A stretch of 64,000 bases of DNA from Enterococcus haemoperoxidus ATCC BAA-382 (lineage in GTDB: Bacteria > Bacillota > Bacilli > Lactobacillales > Enterococcaceae). The notes under the pieces are model-generated. The model did no database searches. It was not told the DNA's origin and saw nothing but the letters and a program-made list of their open reading frames with translations. Each line of letters starts with the position of its first letter. The first letter of the stretch is position 1. The DNA lies in contig NZ_KE136479.1 in NCBI RefSeq assembly GCF_000407165.1, forward strand, positions 2,181,464 through 2,245,463, read 5' to 3'. Shown one piece after another: positions 9,873-15,394 of the stretch. The translations under genes were made by a program, and so were the position numbers.

Positions 9873-11018
9873 CTATTTTTCCTTACTTGGTGGCGAATTT
9901 ATTTCGCCGGCTATTTCAACGGCAGGTTCTTCTGTTGCTTTAGTTTGGCTATACATCGTATAAACATGGACAACAATTGTTTTACAGACTGCATAAAATG
10001 GTACTGCTAAGAAAATACCTAAAAGTCCAGCAATATTTCCTGCGACAAGTAAAATAATAATAATCGTCAATGGATGAATTTGCAAAGATTTACCAATCAC
10101 ATTTGGGTAGATAATATTGCCATCGATTTGTTGTACGATCAACACAACTAGACAACAAAGTAATGCTTTAAACGGTTCATCAAAAACTGTGACAAAAACT
10201 GCAGGGGCAAGACCGATGTATGGTCCTAAGTATGGAATCAAGTTGGTCACACCAGCAATTACGCCAAATAAAAATGCATAACGGACACCGATCAATGAAT
10301 AACCGATAACAGTAAATGTTGCAACGAATAAACATTCAATCGCCTGACCACTAATATAACTTGATAAGGTTTTATTCAATTTACCTAATAATTCAACAAT
10401 GTCATCTTGGCGCTTTTCAGGTAAAAATCTTTTAACTCCTGGAACTATGCGATCTCCATCTTTTAACATATAAAATAAAATGAATGGAGCTGTAACAATA
10501 ATGATCGTCGTTGAGGCAACCGTTGATACGATTGAACCTAAACTACTGGATAATCCGCTAATAAACTGTTGAATAATATTGCCATAAGAAATATCCAGTT
10601 GATCAATATATTTGGGCAAGTCAAAATCTTTAAAAATAGGCAACTCAGCCATTTGATAAACCCACGCCTCAACCCCTTTAAATACATCCGGCATGTTAGA
10701 AGCCAAACTAGATAGTTGCGAAACCAAGCTTGGAATCACACTTACTAAAAGCAATACAAGTGCTACAATCAAAAGTAAAAATACGATCAAAATCGCAAAA
10801 ATTCGTTTCATATTCGTTTTCATCAATAAATTGACGATTGGATTTAAAATATAATACAAAAAACCAGCTACCAAAACTGGGGCAAATAATGTTGAAAAGA
10901 ATGTTCCTATCGGTGTAAAGATAAAATTGATCTTTGATGATACAAAAATCAGCGTTGCAATCACCAATAATTCTGCTGACCAAAAAAATAATTTTGACTG
11001 TCTTAATTTTTCAAACAA
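9873..11018 (-). CDS. AI-2E family (PerM-like) membrane transporter
   Basis: A 381-residue membrane protein with the family's segment pattern: paired N-terminal helices (about 12-60), one near 75-95, then a cluster of four or five in the second half including ITNLIPYLGPYIGLAPAVF-like sequence (GVTNLIPYLGPYIGL). Relatives are AI-2 exporters or Na+/H+ antiporters; the substrate here is unknown. I place the start at a TTG (11018) because AAAGGAGG lies seven bases upstream. An ORF extends 28 codons further to 11102, but those residues are non-homologous and pass through the ribosome binding site. It has its own terminator. Confidence 0.85.
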   Translation of the reverse strand: MFEKLRQSKLFFWSAELLVIATLIFVSSKINFIFTPIGTFFSTLFAPVLVAGFLYYILNPIVNLLMKTNMKRIFAILIVFLLLIVALVLLLVSVIPSLVSQLSSLASNMPDVFKGVEAWVYQMAELPIFKDFDLPKYIDQLDISYGNIIQQFISGLSSSLGSIVSTVASTTIIIVTAPFILFYMLKDGDRIVPGVKRFLPEKRQDDIVELLGKLNKTLSSYISGQAIECLFVATFTVIGYSLIGVRYAFLFGVIAGVTNLIPYLGPYIGLAPAVFVTVFDEPFKALLCCLVVLIVQQIDGNIIYPNVIGKSLQIHPLTIIIILLVAGNIAGLLGIFLAVPFYAVCKTIVVHVYTMYSQTKATEEPAVEIAGEINSPPSKEK

Positions 11019-11167
11019 AGATGATCCTCCTTTAGCATTAAAAAATTCTCTGTTATTCTTTTTACAAAAAATAATTGCTTGTTTATAGATTCTAGCATAC
11101 ATTTTCCTAAATAAGATAGCAATACTTCTTTGTACCTATTTTTGATCTCTATATTTTCTCAATTCAT

Positions 11168-11208
11168 ACAAAAAACATCCGCTAAATTGGATAATACGGA
11201 TGTTTTTT
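11168..11208. terminator. Bidirectional terminator
   Basis: AAAAAACATCCG and CGGATGTTTTTT arms around a 15-base loop. On the minus strand it ends the 62-residue gene. Confidence 0.85.
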
Positions 11209-11236
11209 GCAGAAAATTTTAATTACAAAAATAAAT

Positions 11237-11425
11237 TTATTTTTTGAAAAATCCTTTTACTTTATCAGCCAAACTGCCTGCATCAATCTCGGGAATCATG
11301 GCTTTTAACTTTTCATAATGTTCACCAAGATCATCTTTGTGGTCATCAAGGAACTGTTTAGCTTTTTCAAAATTTCCTTCACCAACCAAGTCTTTTACTT
11401 TTTGCACGATTTCATCTGTATTCAT
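11237..11425 (-). CDS. Small helical protein of unknown function (62 aa)
   Basis: Sixty-two residues, predicted almost fully helical and highly charged (VGEGNFEKAKQFLDDHKDD), ending in SLADKVKGFFKK. I do not recognise a named family. The ATG at 11425 is chosen because GGAAGG lies upstream at about 11 bases; a GTG at 11434 is too close to that site. The gene has its own terminator and stands divergent to the GNAT gene. The helix with basic end may be amphipathic, but no function is claimed. Confidence 0.7.
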   Translation of the reverse strand: MNTDEIVQKVKDLVGEGNFEKAKQFLDDHKDDLGEHYEKLKAMIPEIDAGSLADKVKGFFKK

Positions 11426-11572
11426 TATGCACACAACCTTCCGTTTTTTTGTTATTTATACTGTACACTGCTGATACTTTTTTTACAAAAGATAAACACC
11501 AACCAATATCAACGTTCTAATGTCTGATTTTTTGGGGTATAATAAACGAAATACTTATAAGAGAGGTGCTAA

Positions 11573-12007
11573 ATGAAAATCGTCCACACTAAAGATACTA
11601 TGAGTGATATCTACTTAGATGCTGTTAAAATCCGCCGGCAAGTTTTTATGATTGAGCAAGGCGTTCCCGGTGAGATTGAAATTGATAAATACGAAGCGGC
11701 TTGTATTCATTTTGTTTTGTATGGTGATAATAACGAAGCTATTGCTACTTGTCGTTTGTTGCCGCTAGAAAATGGATTGATAAAATTACAGCGTATGGCT
11801 GTTCAAAAAGATTTTAGAGGGAATGATTATGGGCGTTTGATTGTAGCTAGTGCTGAACAGTTTGCAGACGAGCAAGGATACAATGCGATCACTTTAGGTG
11901 CACAAATCACAGCTCTTGGGTTTTATGAGAAAATGGGCTATACCAAGGAAGGCGAAATGTTTCTTGATGCAGCTATTGAACATTATCAGATGAATAAACG
12001 ATTTTAG
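11573..12007 (+). CDS. GNAT family N-acetyltransferase
   Basis: A 144-residue single-domain GNAT enzyme that transfers acetyl from acetyl-CoA to an unknown amine. Motif A, the acetyl-CoA pyrophosphate loop, is MAVQKDFRGNDYGRLIV (about 82-98), followed by motif B around ITALGFYEKMGY. The N-terminal RRQVFMIEQGVP segment is typical of the YjcF/ElaA-like subgroup. The promoter TATAAT is at 11538-11543 with a weak -35 (TTCTAA, 17-base spacer), and GAGAGG precedes the ATG. Single gene with a downstream terminator. Confidence 0.88.
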   Translation: MKIVHTKDTMSDIYLDAVKIRRQVFMIEQGVPGEIEIDKYEAACIHFVLYGDNNEAIATCRLLPLENGLIKLQRMAVQKDFRGNDYGRLIVASAEQFADEQGYNAITLGAQITALGFYEKMGYTKEGEMFLDAAIEHYQMNKRF

Positions 12008-12020
12008 ATTTCAAGTAAAA

Positions 12021-12066
12021 AAGAAGTCAAAGCAAAACTTAATCAGTCTTGCTTTGACTTCTTTTC
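12021..12066. terminator. Bidirectional terminator
   Basis: Fifteen-base perfect arms (12021-12035 with 12049-12063) between convergent genes, with T run on plus and A run before the left arm. Confidence 0.92.
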
Positions 12067-12087
12067 TCACTTTGCATCTTACATTGG

Positions 12088-12621
12088 CTATTTCTTTGAC
12101 AGCTCTTGATAACGCTTATACCAGATATCCACATAAGCTTCAGAGAAGGGACCTTTTTCGTTATTAATCCAATCGACTAGCGTCTTAACATTTTCTTTTA
12201 GAATAAAATCGATATCTTCTGGATAATCCATAATTTTACTGTGAAATTCATACTCATCCACATCCAATAATCGTTTTTCGCCATCAGGAAAAACTTTGAT
12301 ATCCAGATCATAATCAATATACTTCAATGCTTCATCATCTAAAAGATAAGGTGATGCTAAATTGCAGTAATAAGAAACCCCTTTTTCTCTAATCATCGCT
12401 ATTATGTTGAACCAGTATTTTTTATGGAAATAAACGATAGCTGGTTCCCGAGTAACCCAACGGCGTCCATCAGACTCTGTTACCAAAGTATGATCGTTCA
12501 CGCCGATTAAAGAATACTCGCTTGTTTTTAATACCATAGTATCACGCCATGTTCGATGCAAATGCCCATCGTGTTTGTAACTTTGGATCGTTACAAATTC
12601 ACCTTCTTTTGGAATTGCCAT
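12088..12621 (-). CDS. DUF402 nucleoside tri-/diphosphate phosphatase (Ntdp/YgaC type)
   Basis: A 177-residue DUF402 protein. Characterised relatives hydrolyse nucleoside tri- and diphosphates with divalent metal. Conserved segments visible: [16 protein letters not shown] (N-terminal barrel), [16 protein letters not shown], and the acidic [14 protein letters not shown] and LDVDEYEFH stretches that bind metal and phosphate. The ATG at 12621 is chosen because the family starts with this M-x-x-PKEGEFV sequence; an 11-codon extension exists but looks like untranslated sequence. The ribosome binding site is only GGGGG close to the ATG. The gene lies between a GNAT gene and the CRISPR array. Confidence 0.9.
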
Positions 12622-12827
12622 AGTCCCCCAACTTTCCCTAGTACGAAAAATCATTTCTAAAAGCTACTAACTTTTCGTTTGGGTGTTCATTACACCGATA
12701 TCAACATAATTATATCATAATTTTCAACTTTGCATACTAAGGAGTTTGCTTTCTCATCACAATGAAGGGGAACTATTAAAATAAATGGTTTGATTTTAGT
12801 TTTTTTGAAGGTTAATTGGTTATGATT

Positions 12828-13263
12828 TTGAAGAGGAGTGGGGTCTATACAGAGCTAGACATTTCTTGTGTTCCGACAACAGGTTCACCTATATTATTTC
12901 AATCCACTAGCTCTATACAGAGCTAGACCCTGTGTAATCGGGTGTAGATCCTTGATCTGTTTATTTCAATCCACTAGCTCTATACAGAGCTAGACTTTTA
13001 CAGGGATCATATAAAGACGATCATGCTTGATTTCAATCCACTAGCTCTATACAGAGCTAGACGAAAAGTGGCGAGTAGCTCAAAACAGTTTTGGGGAATT
13101 TCAATCCACTAGCTCTATACAGAGCTAGACAAAGAGAATAAATTTAGTCAAGCTTATATGCGTATTTCAATCCACTAGCTCTATACAGAGCTAGACCAGG
13201 GTTTATAGCAACCGTAACCCCAAACTCTAGATTTCAATCCACTAGCTCTATACAGAGCTAGAC
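12828..13263 (-). CRISPR. CRISPR array, type I-C repeat, six spacers, no cas genes
   Basis: Six identical 33-base repeats lie at 12896-12928, 12963-12995, 13030-13062, 13098-13130, 13164-13196 and 13231-13263, separated by spacers of 33-35 bases. A seventh, degenerate copy ends at 12860: its last 17-18 plus-strand bases match and the rest has diverged. In crRNA sense (minus) the repeat begins GTCTAGCTCTG, has CTAGCTCT/AGAGCTAG palindromic arms, and ends GTGGATTGAAAT, the 3' handle typical of subtype I-C. Polarity follows from that handle and from the degenerate copy at the low-coordinate (leader-distal) end. No cas gene is found anywhere in the window. All six spacers differ. Confidence 0.96.
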
Positions 13264-13425
13264 TGTGAAAATACTGCAAATACCTACCATATTTCCACTA
13301 TTCAACTATTAATCACAGTATAACATTAAATTAAAATGAGAAAAACCCTGTTTTTCCAACTAAAATCAGCAAAATTTTGGTGCGGACCTCCTAGGGGTTT
13401 TATGGGCACTTAGGGTTCGCACCTC
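13264..13425 (-). promoter_or_regulatory. CRISPR leader with terminal inverted repeat
   Basis: An AT-rich region on the leader-proximal side of the array. Its outer end carries an inverted repeat, GGTGCGGACC (13379-13388) and GGTTCGCACC (13415-13424), enclosing CTAGGGGTTTTATGGGCACT. As I recall, similar GGTGCGAACC...GGTCCGCACC blocks lie between cas2 and the array in type I-C loci, so this looks like an intact leader; that comparison needs an alignment. It ends four bases from the mutY stop codon. Confidence 0.7.
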
Positions 13426-13428
13426 AAT

Positions 13429-14604
13429 TTATTCTTCTATTTTAAATTCTTGTTTATAAAGTTCTACCATTTTTTGCTGAGGCTTCGGAAAAACATAATT
13501 TTGAAAGTCTTCTTTTTTTGACCAAATTTGATTTTCACCTGTATCTAGCTTCCCAGTTTGGCGTCCATAGAAAACTAAAATATGCCATTTTAAATGACTA
13601 AAAATATGAATAACCTCTCCTAGAGATCGCTTTTGCCAAACAACTTGAGAATAATCTTCAAAAATTGCTGTTTTTTCTTCAGCAACTAAAAGCGGTTCTT
13701 CAAAATCAAATGATAACTGTTGCTCTTCTCTAACCGATGTCTTTTGTAGAAAATCAAAACGCTCTTTACTAACTTCTTCTATTGGAAATAGCCACATATT
13801 AGCCAATAATCCTTTTGCACTACGCTGACTCAGTAAAAATTCTTGCTCTTTATTTTCAATAATTCCACCGACATAGTAGACATCTTTTGGTTTCAACTTT
13901 TTTGATTTGACTGGAAAATTCGTCATTGTATTATTCTGATAGCTCAAACAATAAGACTGAATCGGGCATTCTTCGCACTTTGGCGACGTTGGCGTACAAA
14001 TTGCTGAACCTAAGTCCATCATAGCTTGGTTAAAATCACCAGGACGATTTTGATCAATTATTTTATACATCGCTTCTTCAAACACCTTGCGGCTACTAGG
14101 TTTGGCAATGTCATCACTGATTTCAAACAAACGGCTCACAACACGCATAACGTTGCCATCAATTGCAGGTTCCGGGATTTGAAAAGCTATACTGCCGATT
14201 GCACCTGCCGTATACGGTCCAATTCCCTTTAATTGACGAATTTCTTCAATTGTTTCAGGCATCTGACCATTAAATTCTGTCATGATTTGTTGCGCTGCAA
14301 CTTTTAAATTTCTTGCTCTAGAGTAATAACCTAAACCTTCCCAAGCTTTTAACAATCGCTCATCTGGTGCTTCAGCTAAATCCTTGATTGTCGGAAACCA
14401 CTCCATAAAACGATAATAGTAATCGATCACTGTATCAACTCGAGTTTGCTGCAGCATAATTTCTGAGATCCAAATGCGGTATGGATCTAAATTGACTCGC
14501 CAAGGTAAATTTCGCTTTTCCTTTTCATACCAGGTGATAAATTCTTCTTGAAATGACTGGAGTTTATCATCACTCCACGTCTCCCAATATTTTTCATTCT
14601 TCAT
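13429..14604 (-). CDS. mutY: A/G-specific adenine glycosylase MutY
   Basis: Removes adenine mispaired with 8-oxoguanine or guanine. The 391 residues show a HhH-GPD catalytic domain with the catalytic Glu in SEIMLQQTRVD (about 48-58), the helix-hairpin-helix LKGIGPYTAGAI with the catalytic Asp in AIDGNVMRV, and the [4Fe-4S] cluster C-x6-C-x2-C-x5-C (CTPTSPKCEECPIQSYC, about 202-218). A NUDIX-like C-terminal domain (about 240-385) reads 8-oxoG. The start overlaps the recX end by 11 bases, so the two are one operon. No clear terminator separates the stop codon from the CRISPR leader on the same strand. Confidence 0.97.
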   Translation of the reverse strand: MKNEKYWETWSDDKLQSFQEEFITWYEKEKRNLPWRVNLDPYRIWISEIMLQQTRVDTVIDYYYRFMEWFPTIKDLAEAPDERLLKAWEGLGYYSRARNLKVAAQQIMTEFNGQMPETIEEIRQLKGIGPYTAGAIGSIAFQIPEPAIDGNVMRVVSRLFEISDDIAKPSSRKVFEEAMYKIIDQNRPGDFNQAMMDLGSAICTPTSPKCEECPIQSYCLSYQNNTMTNFPVKSKKLKPKDVYYVGGIIENKEQEFLLSQRSAKGLLANMWLFPIEEVSKERFDFLQKTSVREEQQLSFDFEEPLLVAEEKTAIFEDYSQVVWQKRSLGEVIHIFSHLKWHILVFYGRQTGKLDTGENQIWSKKEDFQNYVFPKPQQKMVELYKQEFKIEE

Positions 14605-15394
14605 TCTCTAATTCCTTTTCATCAAAATATTGCTGAATCAAATCTGAGTCAAAACGTTTTTGGAAAAGTCCTTGTTTGACTTTCATTAGGCGTTTATAAG
14701 AATCTAATTTACGATGCTTTTCCCATAATTTATCGCCTTCTTTTCTGATCACATCTAATTCTTGGTCTTCATCTTTTTCAAACGATAACTCTTCTAAAGC
14801 CAAATCGATCACTTCACGATTAAACCCTTTTTGCATCAGATGCATTTGAACTTTTTGCAAAGCATCTTTGAAACTCTTTGTTCGATAACGTCTCATTGCT
14901 TTTTCAGCAGTTGCTTTTGCTACTTCTACTTGTTCGTCCATAGTATAAAAAGTTAACCCATGTTGAATGTCTTCGTCATTCAAGCCTTTTCGTTTTAATT
15001 GTTGTTCAATCATTTTGGGTCCTTTATCACTTGTTCGCATTAAGGTTCGAACATAACTTTCACTAAATATTTTATCGTCTAAAAGGTTCATTTCTTCTAA
15101 GCGAATCACGATGTTTTTTCGATCTTCTGGTAAAATTTCCTTTTCTTTCAAGTAATCTAAAATTTCTTTTTTTGAACGTAATTGGTAGCTTAAATAATTT
15201 AAGGACATTTGCAAGCCCACATCATAAGAACCAGCTTTTTTTATTTTCTCGACCATTTCATCCGATAATTCTTGTCCTTTTAACAAACGTTGTCGGACTA
15301 AGGTATCCTCAGATACACGTAATTTTTCTCCTGAAGATAGCCAGATAAGATAAAACTGACCTTTGTCTTTTGTAATTTTCGTGATTGTTTCCAT
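14594..15394 (-). CDS. recX: Recombination regulator RecX
   Basis: A 266-residue RecX protein, which modulates RecA filaments. The long Firmicute form shows an N-terminal extension (about 1-60) and three tandem helical repeats, with typical sequence LSYQLRSKKEILDYLKEKEI (about 66-85), TSDKGPKMIEQQLKRKG, and a Lys/Glu-rich C-terminus. It overlaps mutY, tying recombination control and oxidised-base repair into one transcript. Start ATG at 15394, divergent from the methyltransferase gene. Confidence 0.92.
   Translation of the reverse strand: METITKITKDKGQFYLIWLSSGEKLRVSEDTLVRQRLLKGQELSDEMVEKIKKAGSYDVGLQMSLNYLSYQLRSKKEILDYLKEKEILPEDRKNIVIRLEEMNLLDDKIFSESYVRTLMRTSDKGPKMIEQQLKRKGLNDEDIQHGLTFYTMDEQVEVAKATAEKAMRRYRTKSFKDALQKVQMHLMQKGFNREVIDLALEELSFEKDEDQELDVIRKEGDKLWEKHRKLDSYKRLMKVKQGLFQKRFDSDLIQQYFDEKELENEE

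Follow-up and report, generated by a model that had tools for sequence, protein, structure and literature searches.

A detached type I-C CRISPR array beside mutY in Enterococcus haemoperoxidus, probably served in trans by a single cas operon

Several CRISPR arrays per cas locus are common in general. The orphan array CRISPR2 of E. faecalis has been described as working with the Cas9 of CRISPR1 and as being kept in strains without cas genes (PMC4580645, PMC5491264), and a 2026 survey inferred a similar rate of spacer gain for arrays that have one repeat in common, whether they are located near cas or far from it (PMC12814883). For enterococcal type I-C systems, PMC10165109 gives the order of the effector and adaptation genes, and its Table 1 contains one E. 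silesiacus strain with four arrays. The array reported here, which lies beside mutY in E. haemoperoxidus, resembles CRISPR2 as portrayed in these accounts in its conserved chromosomal position, in having no cas genes beside it and in a cas locus that lies elsewhere; the service in trans is what we infer for it, and by analogy CRISPR2 is its closest working parallel. CRISPR2 is of type II-A and its repeats are identical to those of CRISPR1, whereas the present arrangement is of type I-C and comprises four detached slots and two stem types. It also differs from the multi-array genomes as presented in PMC12814883 in that leaders are shared here though the repeats differ. The array itself belongs to a known kind; the unusual part is the set of slots with two stems. 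Shared slots, shared leaders and two stem families under one operon are not described in PMC10165109 as far as compared, and a literature search of titles and abstract openings found neither a mutY slot nor a five-slot I-C arrangement.

The window, i.e. the whole stretch of 64,000 nucleotides that was analysed, corresponds to G000:C1:2181464-2245463, where G000 denotes the genome of E. haemoperoxidus ATCC BAA-382. Its array occupies the gap between mutY (TIGR01084; 13429..14604, minus strand), which precedes the slot and is context outside the system, and a DUF402-type gene (12088..12654, minus strand) that follows the slot and is assigned by NCBIfam to the nucleoside tri-diphosphate phosphatase NtdP. 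The coordinates bear out the six identical 33-nt repeats of the preliminary description and add a seventh half repeat; six spacers of 33-35 nt and a leader of 165 nt complete the gap. The repeat is ATTTCAATCCACTAGCTCTATACAGAGCTAGAC on the plus strand, but the array itself reads on the minus strand, where the repeat is GTCTAGCTCTGTATAGAGCTAGTGGATTGAAAT and forms a hairpin of 8 pairs. All features are given here in that reading direction and on the minus strand. The leader (13264..13428) extends between the mutY stop codon and repeat 1, at whose end it carries TTTTCACA, and it contains an inverted repeat (13379..13423, with arms 13379-13388 and 13414-13423) that is present in the leaders of all five slots described below, as well as the conserved TTTTTCTCATT box (13335..13345). 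It is followed by the leader-proximal repeat 1 (13231..13263), spacer 1 of 34 nt (13197..13230), repeats 2 (13164..13196), 3 (13098..13130), 4 (13030..13062), 5 (12963..12995) and 6 (12896..12928), the leader-distal spacer 6 of 35 nt (12861..12895) and the degenerate terminal half repeat (12843..12860). Repeat 6, like the other copies, is 33 nt long with the handle GTGGATTGAAAT and a GTCTAGCTCT/AGAGCTAG stem around a T-type loop, and the starts of the six copies at 12896, 12963, 13030, 13098, 13164 and 13231 correspond to a spacing of 66-68. I-C arrays have direct repeats of about 32-33 nt with a hairpin and a GTGGATTGAAAY-type handle, and the window array has the repeat length, hairpin, handle and unique spacers of this class; as a control, the repeat pattern read backwards had no match in G000. 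The claim of a full leader holds with its 165 nt and conserved elements, while the outer arm of the inverted repeat lies five bases from the mutY stop codon by our count and not four. A promoter scan of the leader was not above chance (2 found versus 2.8 in shuffles) and a terminator scan found none in the window; in some relatives the terminal half repeat appears by eye as a hairpin followed by T-rich DNA. At gathering thresholds, Rfam recognizes a single element in the window, an ordinary ribosomal protein L10 leader (RF00557, 18880-19007).

Searched against the whole window with tblastn, the seven I-C Cas proteins of G000 gave no significant match (best E 0.051, Cas7), and the reported lack of cas genes thus stands for type I-C. 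A complete I-C operon with the gene order cas3-cas5-cas8c-cas7-cas4-cas1-cas2 and seven uninterrupted ORFs is located on contig C2 of the same genome, and genome-wide searches with Cas1 (Pfam), Cas7 and Cas8c had matches on this contig only. NCBIfam typing recognized Cas5c, Cas8c/Csd1, Cas7/Csd2, Cas4, Cas1c, Cas2 and the core and HD models of Cas3, with scores above the cut-offs for Cas5c, Cas8c/Csd1, Cas7/Csd2 and Cas1c; the whole I-C set (cas8c, cas7c, cas5c, cas3, cas4, cas1c and cas2) is accordingly present. The operon is adjoined by an array of four repeats that differ from those of the window in one loop base (A beside cas2, T in the window), and T-loop arrays adjoin cas2 in three other genomes (G010, G011 and G020). 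The genes and their order are the same as given for enterococcal I-C in PMC10165109, Table 2 of which lists the A-loop repeat as DR11 (type I-C), and the subtype originally proposed is in agreement with both the operon and this entry. Because a complete I-C operon and an array with near-identical repeats exist in the same genome, the window array is not an orphan; the preliminary description had read it as one, while stating that an operon elsewhere in the genome would speak against this reading, and its suggestion of possible maintenance in trans agrees with the reading preferred below. The case shows that the label “orphan” is premature for a cas-less array seen in a single window as long as its genome has not been searched in full.

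In the genus as a whole, Cas1 of any type was found in 15 of 22 genomes and the combination of I-C Cas7 and Cas8c in 12; type I-C, which the preliminary description took to be uncommon in enterococci, is not rare in this group. In G006, which has no cas match, some 2.4 kb that correspond to the left flanking region of the cas site of G000 type are retained with 80% identity and without a repeat beside them. In G010 the frame of cas1 (L083:3386-4485) is broken into two pieces by one TGA, reflecting either recent damage or an assembly error, and the arrays of this genome nevertheless contain 28 and 34 spacers. A tyrosine-recombinase gene (L031:8304-9395, G000:C2) is located some 700 nt past the cas-linked array of G000, and close relatives of it are found beside the cas-linked array in several genomes; the family has 6 to 13 matches per genome.

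A second search with the start of a related repeat (ATTTCAATCCACTCACTC, at most one mismatch) had matches in 17 of the 22 genomes, including G000, in which three further cas-less arrays are located at C1:663955 (10 repeats), C1:838253 (14) and C1:2138169 (18). The flanking genes define three additional cas-less slots, namely pcrA-amylase, nadE-E1-E2 ATPase and a locus near DUF975/mobA, the assignment of L161, L178 and L182 being based on one or two flanking genes each. Repeats of the pcrA, nadE and mobA slots have the stem GTCTCACTC/GAGTGAG, those of the cas2 and mutY slots the stem GTCTAGCTCT/AGAGCTAG; the repeat most often seen in the pcrA slot is DR10 in Table 2 of PMC10165109, and G014 has DR9 of that table in its nadE slot. 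Altogether, the five G000 arrays of these two repeat types add up to 52 full-length repeats, and the genome has one I-C operon. In the neighbouring stem pairs 5-20 and 6-19 both bases are different between the repeat families, with the pairing kept. For the 12 of 20 distinct repeats that entered the covariation test (33-nt ones without gaps), the score was 0.263 compared with 0.121 in shuffles, none of which was as high (0/500), and 8 cells were changed on both sides compared with 3.1, more than in any of the 500 shuffles. Two of the five covariation measures were not above the shuffles (both-side-changed pairs, 2 versus 2.1; pair types, 3 versus 4.1), and the two changed stem pairs may represent one event.

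Seven mobA-slot loci harbor a two-gene module for proteins of 180 aa, with a DUF6232 match below the cut-off, and 108 aa. It ends 172-187 nt before repeat 1 in the five loci checked, and its G000 copy is located at L145:3896-4761. A fused relative of 297 aa is found between cas1 and cas2 in G001 (L033:8292-9185) and G008 (L039:10360-11253). PADLOC found no match for the module, which may be an accessory of the I-C CRISPR system. As a further observation, a pcrA-slot array used as query resembles short stretches of Streptococcus satellite phages, for example Javan145 (L222, 1350-1401), perhaps a repeat-like hairpin beside an integrase gene.

The leaders of 63 arrays were compared (15 mutY, 12 cas2, 13 pcrA, 13 nadE, 9 mobA and 1 other), including the second array of G012 (C28), which is placed in no slot group; L157, L158 and L176, remnants in G006 and G017 where no leader was found, stand outside this set and are yet counted as arrays in the size comparison below. 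The aligned leaders share an inverted repeat near GTGCGAACCc.AAGTGc.CAT.AAA..CT.gG.GAt.CGCACC, the TTTTTCTCATT box and, next to the repeat, TTTTCAC. When the gap between the arms was left free, the inverted repeat invariably spanned 44 nt in the 49 leaders for which both arms lay inside the 165-nt slice; of the other 14 of the 63 leaders, which had no match, 13 were truncated by the slice. When the span was set to 44 nt and the slices were lengthened, the inverted repeat was present in 62 of the 63 leaders compared with a mean of 0.015 per shuffled set; the one leader without it belongs to the mutY slot of G013, which has no cas matches. The distance from the end of the inverted repeat to the repeat is 112-115 nt, except for 12 of the 13 nadE leaders and one cas2 leader, in which it amounts to 123-125 nt, i.e. 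about one helical turn more. Within G000, the cas2 leader has 64.8% identity with the mutY leader, and the window array accordingly shares its leader with the cas-linked array. That the inverted repeat might be the terminator of mutY was rejected, since the same element is present in leaders after other genes.

The phylogenetic tree of the leaders is largely in accordance with the slots: the five groups require 5 changes, where 4 would be the minimum and shuffling gives 37.8 on average. The mutY leaders occupy one side of a branch with a support of 99/93, and the nadE group is supported by 98/84. Exceptions are the pcrA group with 3 changes and the mobA group with 2, and the pcrA leaders of G017 and G020 fall with or beside mobA; the cas leader group has 2 changes and the mutY leaders nest among them. 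These groupings are to be read in the light of 20 weakly supported inner branches among 60. Judged from the leaders, the slots seem to be older than the split of these species and to have been mostly inherited in place.

Among 705 extracted spacers, 693 of which are distinct, three are shared between different arrays. Spacer 1 of the window (34 nt) has the same 34 bases as spacer 9 of the G007 cas-linked array (35 nt), spacer 1 of the G003 mutY slot (36 nt) corresponds to spacer 8 of the G003 mobA slot (35 nt), and spacer 2 of the G008 mutY slot (37 nt) corresponds to spacer 1 of the G008 pcrA slot (35 nt). Two of the three pairs thus join arrays of different stem families within one genome. 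In each pair the 5' ends are identical and the 3' ends lie 1-2 nt apart. A spacer copied from another array would agree with it at both ends, and the pattern fits independent captures anchored on the PAM side. Further spacer pairs, which match at 19/33, 26/34 and 23/34 positions, were attributed to chance and left unused.

We consider it very probable that the window array is a detached array to which a single I-C system adds spacers, and which it also reads, in trans; CRISPR2 of E. faecalis would be its analogue. This reading draws on the anatomy of the array, the operon in the same genome, the conservation of slot and leader, the hairpin in both repeat families and the sharing of spacers with a fixed 5' end; the size of detached arrays in genomes with and without the operon and the resemblance of window spacer 1 to plasmid DNA, both described below, also speak for it. 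The difference in the loop allele between the operon's neighbour array (A) and the window array (T), the mixed PAM evidence and the promoter scan count against it. Four of the G000 arrays would accordingly represent detached ones at cas-less slots shared with related species, the fifth following cas2. A single adaptation complex of Cas1c, Cas2 and Cas4 would recognize the common leader, which carries the inverted repeat at a fixed spacing, and would add spacers beside repeat 1 at any slot in trans. The fixed distance of the inverted repeat suggests a putative bent-DNA dock, and upstream leader motifs serve other type I systems in like manner. The leader would drive a transcript toward ntdP. 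Each repeat hairpin of this transcript would be cut by Cas5c, which would accept either stem in view of the conserved GTGGATTGAAAT handle and hairpin shape. Finally, Cas5c-Cas7-Cas8c together with Cas3 would use the crRNAs against plasmids and phages.

A wider proposal is put forward tentatively, as one joint claim that could well fail as a whole. It holds that one I-C adaptation complex feeds five slots of two stems and finds them by the leader, not the repeat; that the 44-nt inverted repeat located 112-115 nt from repeat 1, or farther off by roughly one helical turn in the case of the nadE slot, may be a DNA-bending dock; that the slots were vertically inherited with their own repeat alleles; that arrays wither upon operon loss; and that the DUF6232-like module, tied to one slot and fused between cas1 and cas2 in two species, would be an accessory.

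The size of the arrays differs with the presence of the operon. The median for detached arrays is 10 repeats where it is present (35 arrays, 11 genomes) and 3 where it is absent (18 arrays, 6 genomes), with a one-sided P of about 1e-5 and P = 0.0028 by genome mean; these tests ignore shared ancestry, and arrays within a genome and among related genomes are not independent. For the mutY slot alone, with the terminal repeat counted, which is not the case in the test of all detached arrays, the sizes are 7-40 in ten genomes with the operon versus 2, 2, 2, 5 and 13 in five without (P = 0.0033), whereas the mere presence of a mutY array has no significant tie to that of cas (P = 0.17). Within operon-bearing genomes, the other-stem arrays (slots 3-5) have a median of 9 repeats, which is not significantly below that of the cas-linked ones (10.5, P = 0.54); the mutY arrays, which have the stem of the cas-linked ones, are longer than the other-stem arrays (17, P = 0.015). 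G012 enters the size comparisons solely with its cas-linked array, in this last contrast of cas-linked, other-stem and mutY arrays. Array length is no proof of current activity, because G003 has no Cas1, Cas7 or Cas8c match and yet keeps arrays of 12 and 18 repeats.

These observations bear on the alternative that the window array is a relic, which was seeded long ago, kept a good leader and is no longer updated or read, so that the identity of its repeats would reflect slow decay only. Such arrays do persist in six genomes without Cas1, Cas7 or Cas8c matches, and the window array with 6 repeats is the shortest detached array of G000 (the others have 10, 14 and 18). However, the operon of G000 is intact, the leader retains the shared elements, the leader-proximal spacer was also captured by the cas-linked array of another species with a different 3' end, and arrays are shorter where cas is absent. 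We regard a relic as unlikely in comparison with a detached array served in trans.

The distribution of the mutY slot allowed us to judge the model of the preliminary description, according to which a local cas operon was once located between mutY and the DUF402 gene and was lost. With at most three mismatches, the window repeat has matches in 17 of the 22 genomes, including the second G000 array on C2. The gene mutY itself is present in all 22, and in 15 the gap between mutY and DUF402 contains the array, with 1 to 39 full repeats at the same chromosomal position. The gap is present without the array in G019, G007 and G012, and no array was seen within 10 kb around mutY in G002, G005, G015 and G016. 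All 15 occupied slots have a leader of about 165 nt whose inverted repeat starts a few bases past the mutY stop codon. An exact search with the leader-plus-repeat pattern in 84,980 species genomes, among which that of the window is possibly absent, retrieved 14 stretches, all from Enterococcus. The absence of I-C cas genes beside the window array would suit a local loss, as would a leader that ends beside a gene's stop codon in the same way as the leader beside cas2. Nonetheless, none of the seven Cas proteins of G000 had a match in the mutY-DUF402 interval of the 15 array-bearing genomes, so that local cas loss is not the natural explanation, and both the I-C cas genes located elsewhere in 12 of 22 genomes and the constant start of the leader beside mutY in those 15 add to the case against this highly improbable scenario. 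The least probable reading of all is a different job for the detached array, for example a regulatory effect of its transcript or an RNA that acts without cas, as has been reported for RliB-CRISPR of Listeria. Such a job would account for the conserved position and leader and for the persistence in cas-less genomes, but it conflicts with a spacer content that differs among species, with only three of 705 spacers common to different arrays, and with a mean size of the detached arrays of 1.2 to 3.5 repeats in four of the six cas-less genomes (8 and 10.2 in the other two).

With the same slots, the same leader type, two repeat stems and species with and without the operon, the genus represents a natural experiment, in which it becomes testable whether an array is chosen by its leader or its repeat and how fast arrays decay after cas loss. 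In G018 the mutY-slot array (L091, about 10000-15000) is interrupted by an insert of 4471 nt, one ORF of which resembles by eye the ATPase of an ABC transporter.

Potential targets were found for spacer 1 of the window array, which matches ten Enterococcus plasmid records with 90.9-93.5% over 31-33 nt. In the three plasmids examined, one of which has annotations for prgX, traC and surface exclusion, 29-30 of 34 positions match, position 1 is mismatched throughout, and the next base is the extra one of the G007 copy. A TTC-type PAM is expected for type I-C. The plasmid copies are preceded by CTT or TCC in place of TTC, and because of this and the difference at position 1 they may have escaped or be merely related to the true source of the spacer. 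TTC precedes two imperfect protospacers of the G014 cas-linked array (29/33 and 32/36), whereas those of mutY-slot spacers follow GTC (G014 spacer 13, 30/34) and AAT (G020 spacer 27, 28/35); the PAM evidence is thin and mixed. The window array had no match among phages, and an exact IMG/VR search with 27-31-nt parts of its spacers 1, 2, 4 and 5 returned none. Spacer 1 and the two other shared spacers, searched with at most three mismatches in 105 genomes of the family, retrieved the arrays themselves only. Weak phage and plasmid matches of other arrays led nowhere (H14, H15, H19 and H38 examined), and matches to Paenibacillus plasmids, which look like matches to the repeats of other arrays, were set aside. 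Identical spacers are repeated within a single array in L096, L083, L097, L092 and L037, with four copies, for example, in the mutY-slot array of G010 and in the cas-linked array of G018.
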